From NCBI GenBank assembly GCA_001920415.1, contig MNJR01000099.1:23657-71281 (forward strand): a DNA stretch of 47,625 nucleotides, written 5' to 3'. Made by a program: the position numbers and the translations under genes. Below are positions 33,275 to 39,941 of this stretch, piece by piece. Position 1 is the first letter of the stretch. Each line of letters opens with the position of its first letter. The DNA comes from Acidobacteria bacterium 13_1_20CM_3_53_8. GTDB taxonomy: Bacteria; Acidobacteriota; Blastocatellia; Pyrinomonadales; Pyrinomonadaceae. Below the pieces are notes generated by a model. That model saw only the letters and a program-made list of their open reading frames with translations, was not told the DNA's origin and did not search any database.

Positions 33275-33384
33275 GAGGACGCGGAGACGCGGAGACACGG
33301 CGACCGAGGAGATAAACACGGATAAGGATGAATCAGGTTCTTCTAATCGCCGCGTCGCCGTGTCCCCGCGTCTCCGCGTCGCTC
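33275..33384. repeat. Octamer hairpin, unit gacgcgga, second copy
   Basis: 5' arm 33275-33306 (ggacgcggagacgcggagac and onward); 3' arm 33346-33384 (atcgccgcgtcgccgtgtcc and onward). The 3' arm is almost identical to the one at 29000-29035. It lies upstream of aroA and the rsbW-like gene. Confidence 0.85.
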
Positions 33385-33411
33385 TCACCTCTTCTCTGGT
33401 ATGATTTCCCC

Positions 33412-34755
33412 ATGATTATCCGACCAGCGCGGCGAATTCGGGGACAGATGTCCGTGCCCGGCGATAAATCTATCTCGCATCGCGCGGCGATTATGGCCGC
33501 GCTGGCTGAAGGTGATTCGCGCCTATATAACTTTTCAACGAGCGCGGACTGCGCCTCAACACTCGAATGCTTGCGGCGTCTGGGCGTGACTGTAGAAAGA
33601 GACGGGAACGTTTGTCACGTTCAGGGTGTAGGCCGAACGGGCTTGCGGCCTTCCGCCGAGCCGCTTGATTGTGGCAACAGCGGCTCGACCATGCGCATGC
33701 TCGCGGGAGTTCTGGCGGGACAGGATTTCGTTTCTGAACTGACGGGAGATGAATCGCTCAACTCGCGTCCGATGAGAAGAGTCATAGAGCCGCTCGAATT
33801 GATGGGCGCGCAAGTTTCTTCTGTGGACGGTCGCGCGCCATTACGCATAAAGGGGCGCAGGCCGCTCAAGGCCATAAGCTACGCCATGCCTGTGGCGAGC
33901 GCGCAGGTGAAATCATGCATACTTCTCGCGGGGCTAAACGCAAAGGGTCGCACAGAAGTTCTTGAGCCGCCACTTTCCACACGCGACCACACGGAGCGAA
34001 TGCTCAGATACTACGGCGCTTCGGTTCAGCAGAAGCAGGTCGAACGTGATGGGCGAACGCTCGTATCCGTCTCAGTAGATGGATTGGCGCGGTTAAGAGA
34101 CAGGGGCGGAATGATTCCGGGCGACATCTCCTCTGCGGCTTTCTTCATAGTCGCCGCAGCGCTTCTGCCCCAATCAAAATTGAAGATAGTAAACGTAGGG
34201 CTTAACATCACGCGCACCGCTAGCCTCTTCTCTACGCTCACTTCGTTAGGCGCTGGCCTACGAATCAATCCAGCAGGATCAAGCTCTGTGGCCGAAGACT
34301 TTTATGAGCCAATCGGAGCGATTGATGTTTCGGGTGGCGCCGGGTTAGCTCCCGCCGAAGAAGGGCGCTCGAACGTACTGGGCGGCGCATTAATTCCGCA
34401 GTTGATAGACGAACTGCCCATGCTGGCCGTTCTGGGCACACAGGTTCTAGGCGGGTTCACGATTAAAGATGCAAGCGAACTGCGCGTTAAAGAGAGCGAC
34501 CGTATAACCGCGACGGTTGAGAATTTGCGCGCGATGGGTGCGGATGTTGAAGAGCACGAGGACGGTTTGACCATTAAGAGGCGCACGCAACTTCACGGGG
34601 CAAAGCTAAACTCTTACGGCGACCATCGCATCGCTATGGCATTCACGGTCGCCGCGCTCATAGCCGAAGGCGAATCATATCTGGCTGGCGCAGATTGCGT
34701 GAAGGTTTCTTTTCCAGAATTTTTTCAGACGTTCAGATCTGTGATTGAAAGATGA
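33412..34755 (+). CDS. aroA: 3-phosphoshikimate 1-carboxyvinyltransferase (EPSP synthase)
   Basis: 447 residues from ATG 33412. It joins PEP to shikimate-3-phosphate in the aromatic amino-acid pathway. Signatures are PGDKSISHRAAIMAAL (substrate Lys/Ser/Arg), LDCGNSGSTMRMLAGVL (PEP-binding), SAQVKSCILLAGL, IPGDISSAAFFIVAAAL and DASELRVKESDRI, plus YGDHRIAMAFTVAAL near the end. Full length for the family. The frame extends upstream to 33328, but that part is the octamer repeat. It overlaps aroK by 4 bases (ATGA), so the two are coupled. Confidence 0.97.
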   Translation: MIIRPARRIRGQMSVPGDKSISHRAAIMAALAEGDSRLYNFSTSADCASTLECLRRLGVTVERDGNVCHVQGVGRTGLRPSAEPLDCGNSGSTMRMLAGVLAGQDFVSELTGDESLNSRPMRRVIEPLELMGAQVSSVDGRAPLRIKGRRPLKAISYAMPVASAQVKSCILLAGLNAKGRTEVLEPPLSTRDHTERMLRYYGASVQQKQVERDGRTLVSVSVDGLARLRDRGGMIPGDISSAAFFIVAAALLPQSKLKIVNVGLNITRTASLFSTLTSLGAGLRINPAGSSSVAEDFYEPIGAIDVSGGAGLAPAEEGRSNVLGGALIPQLIDELPMLAVLGTQVLGGFTIKDASELRVKESDRITATVENLRAMGADVEEHEDGLTIKRRTQLHGAKLNSYGDHRIAMAFTVAALIAEGESYLAGADCVKVSFPEFFQTFRSVIER

Positions 34756-35291
34756 GTGATTCCGAGCCGCGCATGATCGTCATCACAGGTTTCATGGCCG
34801 CTGGCAAGACTACAGTCGCCAGAGCGCTCGCGCGACGATTGAACTGCGAGATGCTAGACCTTGATGAAACAATCGCAGAGCGTGAGAAGCGCACGATTCC
34901 TGATTTGATTAACGAAGAAGGTGAGACGAATTTTCGTGAAGCGGAAACCGAAACACTGCGTGAAGTTCTGGAGAAGAGAGCGGCGCGCGTCGTAGCGCTC
35001 GGCGGCGGCGCATGGACACTTTCAGGCAACCGCGCGCTTGTTGCCGAACACGATTGCATCACAGTCTGGTTGGATGCTCCATTTGAATTGTGCTGGCAGA
35101 GAATTACGAATCAAAATGTCCTGCGCCCGCTCGCGCTCGACCGTAAGAGCACGCATGAGCTTTACCTGAAGCGCAGACCGCAATACGAGCTTGCGCAGTT
35201 GCGCATAAAAATGGCTGCGGAAAGGAGCGCCGAAGAGATTTCCGGCGAGATAGAACGTGCATTGCGCCGCGAAAGCTTCGTGAAAAGTTAG
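34752..35291 (+). CDS. aroK: Shikimate kinase
   Basis: A 179-residue kinase that phosphorylates shikimate ahead of AroA. Walker A GFMAAGKTT, the shikimate-binding LDLDETIAE, FREAETETL, the GGGAW loop and the lid RPLALDRK with YLKRRPQYELA are in order. Length is normal. It starts on the ATGA that ends aroA. The next gene, rtcB, starts 45 bases downstream on the same strand. Confidence 0.95.
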   Translation: MSDSEPRMIVITGFMAAGKTTVARALARRLNCEMLDLDETIAEREKRTIPDLINEEGETNFREAETETLREVLEKRAARVVALGGGAWTLSGNRALVAEHDCITVWLDAPFELCWQRITNQNVLRPLALDRKSTHELYLKRRPQYELAQLRIKMAAERSAEEISGEIERALRRESFVKS

Positions 35292-35335
35292 AGTTTTCAT
35301 TCGGTGGATTGTCAAATTTCCAGAGGGAGCAAGCG

Positions 35336-37306
35336 ATGAGCGAGAAGATAGAGGACGCGAAAGCGTTGAAGACTGCGAAGACACTGATAAACGCACACAA
35401 CTGGAAACATCTTGCGCGCTGGAACGGTGCAGGCTATTACGAGCTTCAGACGGAAGACACAGGCGATGTTCCAGTCCGCCTCTTCCTGACGAAATCTCTG
35501 CTGGATGCTACGGAAGAGATTCTCTATCAGCAGATAATAAACGCCACACGCTTTCCCGGCGTGAAGATGGTAGTAATCACACCCGACGCACATTACGGTT
35601 ACGGTGTGCCTGTGGGTTGCGCGTTGATTACAGACGCGGAAAGCGGCGCGATTGCGATGGGGCCTGTGGGGTACGATATTGGATGCTTCACGGCGGATAC
35701 GCTAGTTCCTTTGATTGACGGCAACTCTTATCCAATCGGCGTGCTGGCCCAATCTAATGAAGAGGTATTTGTTTACGCTCTCTCTACAGAACAAAGGGTT
35801 GTCATCGCAAAAGCGAGGGTTAAAAGGACGCGAACCCGTGCCACGTTGGTTAAAGTTATGCTGGACAATGGGAGAGAGATTTTCTGCACGCCAGATCACG
35901 AATTCATGCTACGCGATGGAAGTTTCCGACAGGCTCAGCACTTAACAGCCCAGACATCTCTGATGCCCTTTCATGCAGAGAGTTATGCGTTCAAGAAGCC
36001 GGAGTTGAGTAATCAGCCCGTAGCTCGCTACAGTTATAATCATAAAGTTATTTCTGTAGAACCTTTGGAGCAGGTCGCGGATGTCTATTGCTTGACTGTT
36101 CCTGAATACGGAAACTTTGCGCTCGACGCAGGGGTATTTGTTCATAACTGCGGGATGATGAGCGCGAGGTCTGATGTTCCTGCTGATGAAGCAACGCCAG
36201 AAAGAAAATTGGAGTTCAACCGCGAGGTGATGAGTCGCGTTGAGATGGGCTATGGCGGTAAGAGCCACAGGCTTGGAAAAGTTTCAGAAAGCGAATTTCA
36301 GAATCTGGTGCGAGGCGGCGCTGAGTATTATGTGGAAAAATATGGAGCAACTTTTGATCGCAGCCGCGCCGAACGTCATCGAATTCCGGTTGACGATGAC
36401 TGGCAAATTCCTTGGGGCGGAAAAGGAAGGCCGGAGCGTGGACTAGAGCAATTAGGCAGTCTCGGATCGGGAAATCACTTTATTGAATTGCAGTGCTCTG
36501 AAAAAACAGGCACGCTCTTCGTTCAGGTTCACACTGGAAGCCGTGGGTTCGGGCATGGCCTTGCGACGAACTATTTCGAGATGGCGCGCGAGGAAAGACC
36601 CGACGAGATAAGGGATATTGACCTGGGCTACTTCACGCCGGACTCTCGTCATTACAAAGATTATCTGAATGCGGTCGCGGCTGGCGGCAACTACGCCATC
36701 TTGAATCGCTTGATAATCTTCGAGCAGGTCGCAGAAGCTTTCCGAAAAGTTTTCGGGGACGATCTGGAATTGATTTACGAGATAAGCCATAACCTTGTGC
36801 AGAAGGAGTGGAACCCAAATTTCGGCGAAGTGTGGGTGCATCGCAAAGGTGCTACGCGAGCTTTTCCCGCAGGCCATCCTTTTTTGAAAGGGTCTGTCTG
36901 GGAGACGACGGGGCATCCGGTTCTGATTCCCGGAAGCAACAAGGATTACAGCTACATTCTTCGTCCTTTGCCTGATGCTGTGAACAGCGGCTACACGGTC
37001 AATCACGGCGCTGGCCGACGCATGTCGCGTGGCGAGGCCATGCGCACGCTCTCGCAGCGCGCGATGGATGACGAGTACGCTGCCGCAGGAATTCTGGTGA
37101 ACACGGACGGCCACGTGCCGCTAGATGAAGCCGCGCCGTGCTACAAACCTTCTGCGGAAGTTGTGCAGGCTGTGGTTGAAGCTGGCCTTGCAGAGATAGA
37201 ACATCAGCTCTGGCCGCTCGCTTCGCTCAAAGGCGTGGACGAGCGGAAGATGAAGAGAAGGAAGAGAGGCGCAAGGTCAAAAAGAAAAACGGAGGAGCAT
37301 TACTAG
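35336..37306 (+). CDS. rtcB: RNA ligase RtcB interrupted by a mini-intein
   Basis: A 656-residue precursor from ATG 35336 (AGGGAGC upstream). Excising residues 117-271 leaves a 501-residue RtcB. RtcB joins 2',3'-cyclic phosphate (or 3'-phosphate) and 5'-OH RNA ends using GTP and Mn2+. Host motifs are DAHYGYGVPVGC, GYDIG/CGMMSARS, LGSLGSGNHFIELQ, VHTGSRGFGHGL, EISHNLVQKE, GATRAFPAGHP, and NHGAGRRMSR with the guanylylated His. No archease or rtcA gene is nearby. It belongs to the rightward aroA-aroK group, so it may share that transcript. Confidence 0.95.
   Translation: MSEKIEDAKALKTAKTLINAHNWKHLARWNGAGYYELQTEDTGDVPVRLFLTKSLLDATEEILYQQIINATRFPGVKMVVITPDAHYGYGVPVGCALITDAESGAIAMGPVGYDIGCFTADTLVPLIDGNSYPIGVLAQSNEEVFVYALSTEQRVVIAKARVKRTRTRATLVKVMLDNGREIFCTPDHEFMLRDGSFRQAQHLTAQTSLMPFHAESYAFKKPELSNQPVARYSYNHKVISVEPLEQVADVYCLTVPEYGNFALDAGVFVHNCGMMSARSDVPADEATPERKLEFNREVMSRVEMGYGGKSHRLGKVSESEFQNLVRGGAEYYVEKYGATFDRSRAERHRIPVDDDWQIPWGGKGRPERGLEQLGSLGSGNHFIELQCSEKTGTLFVQVHTGSRGFGHGLATNYFEMAREERPDEIRDIDLGYFTPDSRHYKDYLNAVAAGGNYAILNRLIIFEQVAEAFRKVFGDDLELIYEISHNLVQKEWNPNFGEVWVHRKGATRAFPAGHPFLKGSVWETTGHPVLIPGSNKDYSYILRPLPDAVNSGYTVNHGAGRRMSRGEAMRTLSQRAMDDEYAAAGILVNTDGHVPLDEAAPCYKPSAEVVQAVVEAGLAEIEHQLWPLASLKGVDERKMKRRKRGARSKRKTEEHY
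35684..36148 (+). other. Mini-intein in RtcB (155 residues)
   Basis: The insertion starts with Cys (block A CFTADTLVPL), has block B CTPDHEFMLRDGSF with the T-x2-H motif, block F VADVYCLTVPEYGNFALDAG and ends FVHN before Cys+1. This is a complete class 1 splicing set. There is no LAGLIDADG or HNH endonuclease, so it cannot home by itself. The +1 cysteine is the metal-binding Cys of RtcB, so splicing is required to build the active site. The same site carries a large intein in archaeal RtcB such as that of Pyrococcus. Confidence 0.92.
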
Positions 37307-37318
37307 CATCACGCTGAA

Positions 37319-37456
37319 GTAAAAAGACAAAAGAAAGTAAAAAGGTAAAAGTAAAAAGGCAAAAGTGTGGACACGCCTTGCAGGCGTGAATTAAAGATTA
37401 AAAATGGCTTTAGTCCTTATCCCTTTTGCCTTTTACCTTTTTACTTTTGCCTTTTA
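37319..37456. repeat. ggcaaaa heptamer hairpin with inner stem, second copy
   Basis: 5' arm 37319-37366, 3' arm 37422-37456, with the inner hairpin acacgcct-aggcgtg (37371-37387) as in the element at 17588-17728. The two share loop words such as gtgtggacacgcct and gattaaaaatgg. The 3' arm supplies the last residues (KRQK) and stop of the methyltransferase. Confidence 0.9.
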
Positions 37457-38751
37457 ATACAGACTGCCGTCTCGTACAAACGCTGGCGTCCGCCTCTCTT
37501 TCTAAAAGAGATTATCTTCTCAACACGGAAACCTTCTCGTTCACAAATCTTGCCGAAAATAGCTTCAGTAAATATCTCTACACCTGAGAGCCTTGAGTTT
37601 CCTACGACATAAGCTCCCTTGAAATCATTTGAAACGCAACGCTTCAGCGCCTTGATGTGTCGCCACAAATCAATGAAATATTTGGTGGCGTAGTTACACA
37701 TCAGAACGCTTCTATCTTTTAGCTCATCATAATATGAGAGATAAGGTCTGATTTCTGCGGGCACTTCTATCAACTCATTTTGCAGTATTGAAGTGGCTCT
37801 TCCCCACGTTCCGCCGATTGCGTTCAAATCTATCTCGGTCGCCTGTCGAATGTTTTCGAGCAAGTCCATGAAGTGAAGCTGTGGTCTGGTTTGATGTACA
37901 TAGCTATAGCGGTTCGGATAAGGCGGAGATGTAATCACAAGACCAACGGAACGTTTCAAAAGCTCTTCTAAATTCCGAGTCGAATTACCAAGCAGGACGG
38001 AGTTCAGTCTGGAGTTGCAAATCTCCTCATCGCTTAGACTCTCCAAATCTTTAGAAATCGTCTTGAGATTTTCGCTCACTTCGAAATAGACATCAATGTT
38101 CCTCTGATGGTTGTCATCGAAAGTGATTGTGGGGTGATTCCTATGAATGTTGGCGCAATCGAGAGCGGCTTTGTTCACAGCCAGCCACAGATAATTTGAG
38201 ATAGAAGAATATTTTCCCAGAAGACTTAACTCGCGACAGATTATCAAGTTCTTCAGAACATCGGGCTTCCACCAACGAAACACATTATGAATTAAGGGCA
38301 GCCTCGCATTGAATTTCAGAAGAACTGAATCAATCGAATCTTTCTGATGTTCGTTCAATAAACAATCTAGCTCGGCAATGTAATCTCCAAATAATTTTAG
38401 ATGACCAGTCTCCCACAGCAGAGACCTGTCGCTGACCTGTTGAAGTAGAGGATTGATCTCTATGCCTAGCGCCGGAATCCCAAGCTTCTGGCACTCTATG
38501 ATGGTCGTTCCCCTTCCGCAGAAAGGGTCTAGGACAAAGCTATCTTTTGTGACGGCGAGTTCTTGAATAAGGTATCGAACCAGACCGGGAGAGTAGCTTG
38601 GAGTCAAACGATACCAACGATGAACAGACTCATTCTGTCCGGGTTTGAAAGTGATGTCGCCTATATTGACTTCTTCGTATCTGAAGCCGGATTCCCTGAT
38701 GTTGCGGTAAAAGCAGGAGGTGATGGCGGAGTTTGTGCCGAGTTCTTTCAT
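37441..38751 (-). CDS. Orphan site-specific DNA methyltransferase (N4-C or N6-A type)
   Basis: A 436-residue amino-methyltransferase. Motif I DSFVLDPFCGRGTT (AdoMet binding) and LGIEINPLL come first, and catalytic motif IV VITSPPYPNRYSY lies near residue 280. HRWYRLTPSYSPGLVRYLI near the start is typical of this group. No restriction enzyme, specificity subunit or phage gene is beside it. Base composition is low (about 35-37% GC in two 60-base stretches I counted) against about 50-60% around it, which suggests recent transfer. Its ATG overlaps the stop of the upstream membrane protein (ATGA). The target sequence is unknown. Confidence 0.85.
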   Translation of the reverse strand: MKELGTNSAITSCFYRNIRESGFRYEEVNIGDITFKPGQNESVHRWYRLTPSYSPGLVRYLIQELAVTKDSFVLDPFCGRGTTIIECQKLGIPALGIEINPLLQQVSDRSLLWETGHLKLFGDYIAELDCLLNEHQKDSIDSVLLKFNARLPLIHNVFRWWKPDVLKNLIICRELSLLGKYSSISNYLWLAVNKAALDCANIHRNHPTITFDDNHQRNIDVYFEVSENLKTISKDLESLSDEEICNSRLNSVLLGNSTRNLEELLKRSVGLVITSPPYPNRYSYVHQTRPQLHFMDLLENIRQATEIDLNAIGGTWGRATSILQNELIEVPAEIRPYLSYYDELKDRSVLMCNYATKYFIDLWRHIKALKRCVSNDFKGAYVVGNSRLSGVEIFTEAIFGKICEREGFRVEKIISFRKRGGRQRLYETAVCIKRQK

Positions 38752-39941
38752 AGGTGCTCTTCCGTCGTTGAGGCAGGATAAAGAGTTCTAATCAGATCGG
38801 TGACCACAAAGGTCAAAACAATTCCCATGAGTATTGCGACCTTCGGCAGTTCGATCACGGGCTGGCCGAAGAGAAAAGGGAAGTAACTGAGGAGAGAGGA
38901 GAGAATCACTGCCAGTGGGACGAAAAAATATCTTGGAAAGTAGAAGGCGTAAACTATTGCGAACACATCTGCGGGGAAGAAGTAGCGCTCGTGCATTGAA
39001 GGCAGGAAGAAGGGCACGAGTATCAGGGAAACAAGCGATAGCTTGATGATTAGCTCGTCCGTCAAAACTTCTTCGCTCTTGATTGCGAGGAGACAGAAGA
39101 GATAGATCATGGCGCAGCCGAAAAAGAGCGCGAACTTTCCGAAAAGCTCGCTGCTGTCAGGCAGCCATTGATAAAAGTTCGGCGCATTCAATGTGAGCGC
39201 CTGATAGTTCACGTCTCCCTGGTGCATGTAGATGACCAAAAGTTCGCCGAGCGGTCTTCCGGCCATCCACGCAGGCAAAATCATCAGAATGTAAACCGCC
39301 GGGATGAGCAGAAACATTTTTGGGTGAATCCGCTTTCGCCACGTGAGGCTGAAGAAGACTGGCAACAGGAAGATCGTTTGCAGCTTGAAAGAGAATGCAA
39401 TTGAGAGAAACAGTATAGAGGCAAAGGGGCGCTCCTTCAGCAGAAAATAGATTGAGCCGAGCAGCAACATTGTGTAAATCGCATCCGTCTGTCCCCAGAG
39501 CGCGCTGTTGAAGATGACGGTCGGCGCAAAGAGCGTCACGAAAAACGCAGACGCCCACACCAGTTTATCTTCATATTTGAGCCGTACGACGAGAGCAACG
39601 AACACCGCGAGCGGGAAGTCGAAAATGATGGAAAGAATTTTTATCGCGTAGAGCTTCTGAACGGGCAGGTTCGTGGCGAGCGCTAGCAGGTAAAGATATG
39701 GCGGCGTGTAGTTGGAAAAATTGTACCCGAGCGCGCGAAAGCTGCCATGGCTCACAATAAAATCGTACCAGTGCGTCATGTGCGAAACGTAATCGCCGCT
39801 CTGGAAATTGAAGAGGCTCACGCGCACCATGACCGCAAGCACCAGACCTGCGCCAAAAAGCAGCAGGTCTTCTGTTGAGAAATCGCGCAGGAATTTTCTG
39901 TAAGATTTATCTTGAGAAGAGATTTTTGGGCGTTTCGGCAT
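38748..39941 (-). CDS. GT-C-type membrane glycosyltransferase
   Basis: A 397-residue protein with about 10 membrane helices after a short basic N-terminus. An acidic residue in the first loop (FNFQSGDYVSHMTHW) and SNYTPPYLYLLAL fit the catalytic Asp and aromatic motif of lipid-phosphate-sugar-dependent GT-C enzymes such as ALG6/ALG8 or PMT families. LWGQTDAIYTMLLL and a late MHERYFFPADV motif are further family marks. It probably transfers a sugar from a polyprenyl carrier at the periplasmic face. The donor and acceptor are not known. It is upstream of, and overlaps, the methyltransferase. Confidence 0.75.
   Translation of the reverse strand: MPKRPKISSQDKSYRKFLRDFSTEDLLLFGAGLVLAVMVRVSLFNFQSGDYVSHMTHWYDFIVSHGSFRALGYNFSNYTPPYLYLLALATNLPVQKLYAIKILSIIFDFPLAVFVALVVRLKYEDKLVWASAFFVTLFAPTVIFNSALWGQTDAIYTMLLLGSIYFLLKERPFASILFLSIAFSFKLQTIFLLPVFFSLTWRKRIHPKMFLLIPAVYILMILPAWMAGRPLGELLVIYMHQGDVNYQALTLNAPNFYQWLPDSSELFGKFALFFGCAMIYLFCLLAIKSEEVLTDELIIKLSLVSLILVPFFLPSMHERYFFPADVFAIVYAFYFPRYFFVPLAVILSSLLSYFPFLFGQPVIELPKVAILMGIVLTFVVTDLIRTLYPASTTEEHL

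Follow-up and report, generated by a model that had tools for sequence, protein, structure and literature searches.

Introduction

Is an intein that has lost its homing endonuclease a leftover of a mobile element, or a regulator of the protein that it interrupts? The question is raised by the rtcB gene of Acidobacteria bacterium 13_1_20CM_3_53_8, which lies in the window, the whole stretch of 47,625 nucleotides analysed here (contig MNJR01000099.1, positions 23,657 to 71,281 of the forward strand). A sequence-only reading had described an endonuclease-free mini-intein at the metal-site cysteine of RtcB and had proposed that it could act as a conditional switch. The explanation that we favour, and hold to be very probable, is that the insert, a class 1 mini-intein, descends from an HNH homing intein of the bacterial RtcB family, lost the HNH endonuclease by deletion in this lineage and likely splices constitutively.

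Identity of the intein

The intein had been placed at 35684-36148, which is exact to the base: the segment encodes 155 residues, is stop-free and lies within one rtcB frame (Table 1). The RtcB flanks match PF01139 in Pfam (E 8.1e-92). The intein itself matches the N-terminal splicing model TIGR01445 over residues 1–75 (E 1.5e-10), the C-terminal splicing model TIGR01443 over residues 133–155 (E 7.4e-5) and, as its sole Pfam match, PF14890 (E 1.1e-18), with no endonuclease domain. The short loop at the position of the HNH endonuclease stays below zero when scored with an HNH-region HMM (best domain −1.3 bits, E 5.2), and the description of the intein as endonuclease-free is thereby borne out.

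Table 1. Features of the rtcB locus, in positions of the window
Feature	Position	Strand	Basis or remark
rtcB frame	35309-37306	+	single open frame, 665 codons, intact; TTG at 35309 opens the frame, first ATG at 35336
RtcB N-extein, ending GYDIG	35336..35683	+	counted from first ATG; PF01139
Mini-intein, 155 codons	35684..36148	+	stop-free translation, Cys1 to His154-Asn155
Cys1, N-terminal splicing nucleophile, block A	35684..35686	+	translation, alignment
Block B TPDH motif, residues 69-72	35888..35899	+	translation, alignment
21-residue loop, residues 97-117, at HNH endonuclease position of relatives	35972..36034	+	alignment
Block F, residues 133-146; Cys136, Gly143 instead of usual His	36080..36121	+	alignment
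Block G, residues 149-155, last two His154-Asn155	36128..36148	+	translation, alignment
RtcB C-extein including stop; first codon is +1 Cys, the RtcB metal cysteine	36149..37306	+	
aroA (EPSP synthase) and aroK (shikimate kinase), upstream of rtcB	33328..35291	+	

An AlphaFold model of the intein, built from an alignment of 8 minis, has the HINT fold (mean pLDDT 88.3), with confidence lowest near residues 104–116 (below 50 at 104–112 and 114–116). In the PDB it has 66 matches at E ≤ 0.001, headed by the NpuDnaE, Ssp DnaB and Ssp DnaE inteins. The model of the 656-residue precursor (mean pLDDT 61.3) is of too low confidence to place the intein on RtcB.

Among the features of class 1 inteins, Cys1, the TxxH motif (TPDH), the penultimate His154, the terminal Asn155 and Cys+1 are all present, and the HINT fold is found in the predicted structure. 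Sequence families, predicted fold and 77 further distinct inteins at the same site together identify the insert as a class 1 mini-intein, an agreement well beyond chance. The sequence-only reading had reported all splicing blocks as present; this stands for Cys1, TPDH, His154-Asn155 and Cys+1, but the absence of the usual block F His (F:13), where Gly143 stands, had been overlooked. This His is common in class 1 inteins, though not obligatory. Across the 78 inteins collected here (see below), the position is occupied by His in 35, Gly in 31, Asn in 5, Glu in 5 and Ala in 2; since 43 of the 78 do without the His, its absence is no sign of a dead intein, although it could slow Asn cyclisation.

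Class 3 (WCT) inteins have no nucleophile at position 1 and carry a Trp, a Cys and a Thr in blocks B, F and G, respectively. This class was considered owing to the block F Cys and was ruled out by the presence of Cys1; in the window intein Phe stands two residues past the block B His, and the block F Cys alone fits the signature.

The insertion site and the predicted splicing reaction

When aligned with Pyrococcus horikoshii RtcB (1uc2), intein Cys1 and Cys+1 both fall on Cys98, so that the insertion lies directly before the Cys98 codon. In the P. horikoshii enzyme, one Mn is bound by Cys98, His234 and His329 and the other by Asp95, Cys98 and His203 (PMC10630183), which upholds the identification of the +1 Cys as the RtcB metal cysteine and makes it the equivalent of a ligand of both active-site metals. 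That archaeal RtcB carries an intein at the same site had also been stated correctly: P. horikoshii RtcB is itself made by protein splicing, with Cys98 as the published junction (PMC4150793). The residues equivalent to P. horikoshii D95, C98, H203, H234, H329 and H404 are kept in the window protein, whose aligned metal and guanylylation motifs read DIG/C (the slash marking the insertion point), GNHF, HTGSRG, SHN and HGAGR against 1uc2, and D114, C272, H381, H399, H485 and H557 are invariant across 15 aligned sequences. Because Ala at the equivalent Cys is described as leaving the ligase dead in the RtcB of P. aerophilum, E. coli and human (PMC10630183), the precursor is predicted to be inactive, and it can be soundly inferred that RtcB activity would be off until splicing.

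The precursor would be synthesised with the intein inside the RtcB active site. The motifs and the model suggest that Cys1 would begin an N–S acyl shift, that the acyl group would pass to the +1 Cys, and that cyclisation of Asn155, aided by His154, would follow; the exteins would be joined as GYDIG-CGMM into an RtcB of 501 residues, with the metal-binding cysteine restored.

Occupied and empty alleles among relatives

Only one RtcB was found among the 155 contigs (6.1 Mb) of the genome to which the window belongs. RtcB was found in 84 of 116 related genomes searched, with no match in the other 32, some of which are incomplete. By our reading, 28 of the genomes searched hold the window's RtcB subfamily: 16 have an intein at the site, 10 have an empty site, and in 2 (G012 and G036) the contig begins past the site. 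The occupied alleles comprise 6 with HNH, 8 without (149–165 aa) and 2 cut by contig ends (G004, G024); five of the HNH alleles are complete at 322 aa, and in the sixth (G051) the contig ends after the motif. The HNH assignment draws on PF13392, which four alleles were tested for and match at E 1.3e-5 to 2.3e-4, one of them above the curated cut-off, and on a strict HNH pattern present in 31 of 33 full-length inteins, with Tyr for His in L139 and Gln for Arg in L135.

All three states are held by one genus, g20 (mini in G019, empty in G040, HNH in G051). Between the mini and the empty allele, 72 bases before the site are identical, 8 differences occur in the 60 bases after it, and the C-exteins are 94.6% identical. 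The two alleles, L048 (intein) and L065 (empty), display a clean insertion, GGT/TGC...AAC/TGC. An empty allele, L061, has GFDIS rather than GYDIG before the Cys and is possibly a homing-resistant site.

A scan of genome contigs returned 296 relatives of the mini query, the best 80 of which were kept. All 80 lie at the RtcB G-[VYF]-D-[IL]-G-C site; 62 are new complete inteins, 14 are repeats and 4 are cut by contig ends. Their hosts, among these best 80, are Acidobacteriota (several named Pyrinomonadaceae), many Cyanobacteria and Thiotrichaceae, with one bin each from Chloroheliaceae, Armatimonadetes and Jacksonbacteria. Related inteins occur in a second RtcB subfamily (GVDIG); three of these, all from the window's family, show 57–61% identity.

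From 121 sources, 92 were retained for comparison (78 with intein, 14 empty), 14 repeats being dropped and 15 having no complete readable site. The 78 inteins comprise 45 minis and 33 full inteins, a biased ratio, as loci were chosen by likeness to the mini query. Named records are mostly bins, the alleles L041, L051, L054 and L077 are cut by contig ends, and the extein of L052 is frame-broken.

Other insertions in RtcB were seen alongside. A distant 508-aa intein (L076:2896-4419, minus strand) occupies the same site in an archaeal-like third RtcB type, whose genome belongs to the same class; it lies outside the set of 78, as its intein starts CL and the collecting pattern required CF. Four viral contigs (L166, L168, L169, L180) seemingly carry an intein at the same RtcB site and are possible carriers. 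The viral scan gave 114 relatives, of which 80, none above 48% identity, were kept. A simple pattern picks out L168, L169 and L180 as the 3 RtcB among these 80; it may miss some, as L166 was recognised as RtcB-like by eye among 45 viral rows. In GVDIG-type RtcB, stop-containing insertions of 1035 bases (L059:3237-4271, plus strand) and 1050 bases (L060:3849-4898, minus strand) sit at another metal-site motif, LGGG/NHF, and contain a LAGLIDADG-like ORF by eye. Their exon ends in T and the insert in G, like group I introns, and no Rfam intron family was matched at gathering scores in either locus, or at E up to 1 in L060.

Probable loss of the HNH endonuclease

In a tree of the 78 splicing domains, built from only 134 columns, full and mini inteins are interleaved with at least 19 changes, a minimum that allows HNH to be regained. 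If HNH is assumed never to be regained, 30 losses are needed on the resolved intein tree and at least 14, three of them inside the window's clade, when only branches supported at 95/80 or above are counted. A single origin of all minis was considered, but the trees do not show one. Repeated loss is preferred over repeated gain because 26 of the 45 mini loops retain HNH sequence (E < 0.01); in the printed alignments, these loops look like the HNH region with its middle or one end gone. All 26 come from the GVDIG subfamily, which has 36 minis in the set.

In the window's clade, no remnant at E < 0.01 was detected in any of nine minis (L077 0.022, L052 0.055, L082 0.082, the window 7.4), although by eye the aligned L077 loop resembles one. 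The case for HNH loss in the lineage of the window itself thus comes from the trees. The window intein is sister to the HNH-bearing L045 with support of 96/79, just under full support, and the window extein is also sister to L045 (95/81). The extein tree is built with 18 hand-picked of 63 GVD rows and without L052 and L077 (short C-extein), and has long branches for L072, L112 and L137. On it, occupied and empty states change 8 times, including empty L072, an RtcB of another type, and at least 6 of these changes are forced by supported branches.

Gene order was compared in 31 stretches from relatives. The aroA-aroK pair lies upstream of rtcB in 16, and the full aroA-aroK-rtcB order is visible in 12, five with intein (L044, L045, L046, L048, L052) and seven without (L061-L066, L068); in L041, L051, L054 and L077, aroA-aroK precede rtcB and the stretch ends inside rtcB. 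The order was not seen in L047, L043 (1.0 kb before rtcB), L082 or L137, nor in the other-family stretches L055, L056, L067, L069 and L070, and seven of the 31 have too little sequence before the site to judge. By gene order the rtcB locus is therefore orthologous, with or without an intein, in most members of the window's family for which the neighbours are visible.

Instead of losing its HNH in place, the mini might have arrived already HNH-free, transferred along with the gene or with flanking DNA, a course of events that we consider unlikely. An HNH-free allele in a distant host, the L082 Chloroheliaceae bin, suggests that rtcB can move, and both the window loop, which has no HNH remnant, and the other minis of its clade, none of which has one at E < 0.01, would fit such an arrival. 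Against it, both the intein and the extein tree group the window with L045, which carries the HNH, and the two share the aroA-aroK-rtcB order. Deletion of HNH within the lineage is hence preferred.

Transfer or mis-binning would explain two of the bins: the whole rtcB of L082 is nested among acidobacterial ones, and the L137 Armatimonadetes bin has its intein nested among acidobacterial inteins and its extein outside them on a long branch. Downstream of rtcB in the window (37441-39941, minus strand), a type II-like DNA methyltransferase gene (PADLOC MTase_II, E 8.2e-34) and the gene of an unassigned 397-aa protein, perhaps an acquired restriction-modification pair, separate rtcB from a topoisomerase IB gene, which in several relatives (e.g. 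L042, L048, L049) lies within about 300 bases after rtcB. GC is lower at 37001-39000 of the window.

The allele pattern fits that expected of a mobile element shedding its endonuclease, and the homing cycle (PMC1654191) accounts for it. HNH would formerly have driven homing into empty rtcB alleles and would then have been deleted in the window's lineage. The intein would have been retained because its exact removal is rare and inexact removal ruins RtcB, and for the same reason selection would maintain efficient splicing.

Other inteins were seen in the window's genome, on contigs C97, C119, C57, C44, C134 and C60 (L004-L010, L241), in DnaB, PrkA kinase, IMP dehydrogenase, a radical SAM protein and DNA polymerase I (probably two); ribonucleotide reductase has two, one LAGLIDADG and one HNH. 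Endonuclease domains were matched in each of these host proteins, which leaves the RtcB intein as the one clear mini detected in the genome. At L242 (1339-3294 and 3213-3890, plus strand), a DnaB frame shifts within the LAGLIDADG part of its intein, through decay, assembly error or a beginning split.

Selection on splicing and the proposed regulation

Purifying selection acts on splicing in the family, in most pairs more loosely than on RtcB itself. The block F Cys and the block F NF are present in 78 of 78 inteins, and the Cys before TPDH in 76 (one has Ser and one has no exact TPDH); Cys1 and the N/C end are likewise found in all 78, both being part of the collecting pattern. In 14 pairs, splicing-domain dN/dS is 0.09-0.36 in eight, dS being saturated in the other six, and C-extein dN/dS is 0.04-0.12 in 12. 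Saturated dS affects all three window pairs, so that selection on the window copy is inferred from its relatives.

Splicing might nevertheless be conditional, with oxidation, metal, temperature or RNA blocking or releasing it and RtcB thereby gated post-translationally. The +1 nucleophile is the oxidation-sensitive metal cysteine of RtcB (human Cys122; PMC12263435), described as oxidised in an aerobic P. horikoshii crystal (PMC10630183), and an oxidant or metal could in principle affect splicing and ligation alike. Precedents also exist: conditional splicing is reported in other hosts, and in P. horikoshii RadA a former endonuclease loop is described as the hinge controlling splicing (PMC5790916). 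However, the loops of nine minis of the subfamily vary in sequence and in length (15-31 aa), the window intein has cysteines just at 1, 68 and 136, the second of which is Ser in L056, splicing residues are common to HNH-bearing and HNH-free copies, and close relatives do without the intein. Proximity to the active site is in itself general among inteins (mean 8.3 Å versus 21.1 Å), and one explanation put forward for it is selection that maintains splicing (PMC3359363). The switch proposed by the sequence-only reading thus finds no support here and is judged improbable. A related idea, that immobile minis are kept as a "wait" device in which oxidants or metals stall splicing and a protected inactive precursor is released when the ligase is usable, draws on the same coincidence, the +1 splicing nucleophile being the thiol whose oxidation inactivates RtcB, and we give it very little credence. 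Given the absence of signs of regulation, constitutive splicing is most likely.

It is also very doubtful that the intein is splicing-dead or decaying, with an unspliced precursor and non-functional RtcB: the missing block F His, the related genomes in which no RtcB was matched and the dispensability of RtcB in some bacteria would allow it, but the 665-codon frame is intact, RtcB metal-site and splicing motifs are kept, and dN/dS is low in comparable pairs of relatives.

At a single site, one gene offers a natural series of alleles: empty ones, ones that carry the HNH, ones in which it is partly deleted and ones that lack it. With three states in one genus, the homing cycle becomes directly testable across closely related exteins, and comparing the splicing of HNH and mini alleles would test whether immobile inteins are leftovers or regulators.

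Comparison with known systems

RtcB inteins at the Cys98 site are already known, given the published P. horikoshii junction and the NCBIfam models for intein-containing RtcB, and the window adds one member. Among the papers listed by searches of the open-licence PMC literature, no title or abstract start concerned bacterial RtcB inteins; in its matching passages PMC4496867 mentions RtcB and inteins only separately, and PMC6390638, on the inteins of GyrB and DnaE, has 0 occurrences of RtcB.

The NCBIfam model NF052663 ("intein-containing RctB family protein", 626 positions) has its best stretch across the N-junction (protein 74-215), and NF038162 (intein-containing RtcB, 961 positions) across the C-junction (protein 236-633). 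The window RtcB falls below both curated cut-offs (307.8 versus 1050 bits and 287.8 versus 1150 bits) and by the rule of NCBI is a member of neither family.

The P. horikoshii RtcB intein (PH1602) interrupts the same host protein at the same point before the metal cysteine (PMC4150793); unlike that of the window it is archaeal, and the likeness, seen through the mature-protein alignment, concerns the site. The Ssp/Npu DnaE and DnaB inteins share the fold of the window model (TM 0.77-0.82 by query, first five rows) but reside in other host genes, at 21-23% identity in those same rows. The P. horikoshii RtcB intein is also larger than that of the window and has an endonuclease. The 322-aa HNH inteins of Acidobacteriota and Cyanobacteria (such as L045, L073 and L140) occupy the same RtcB site; the window intein lacks their HNH, and the two parts of its splicing domain have 73% and 75% identity with those of L045.
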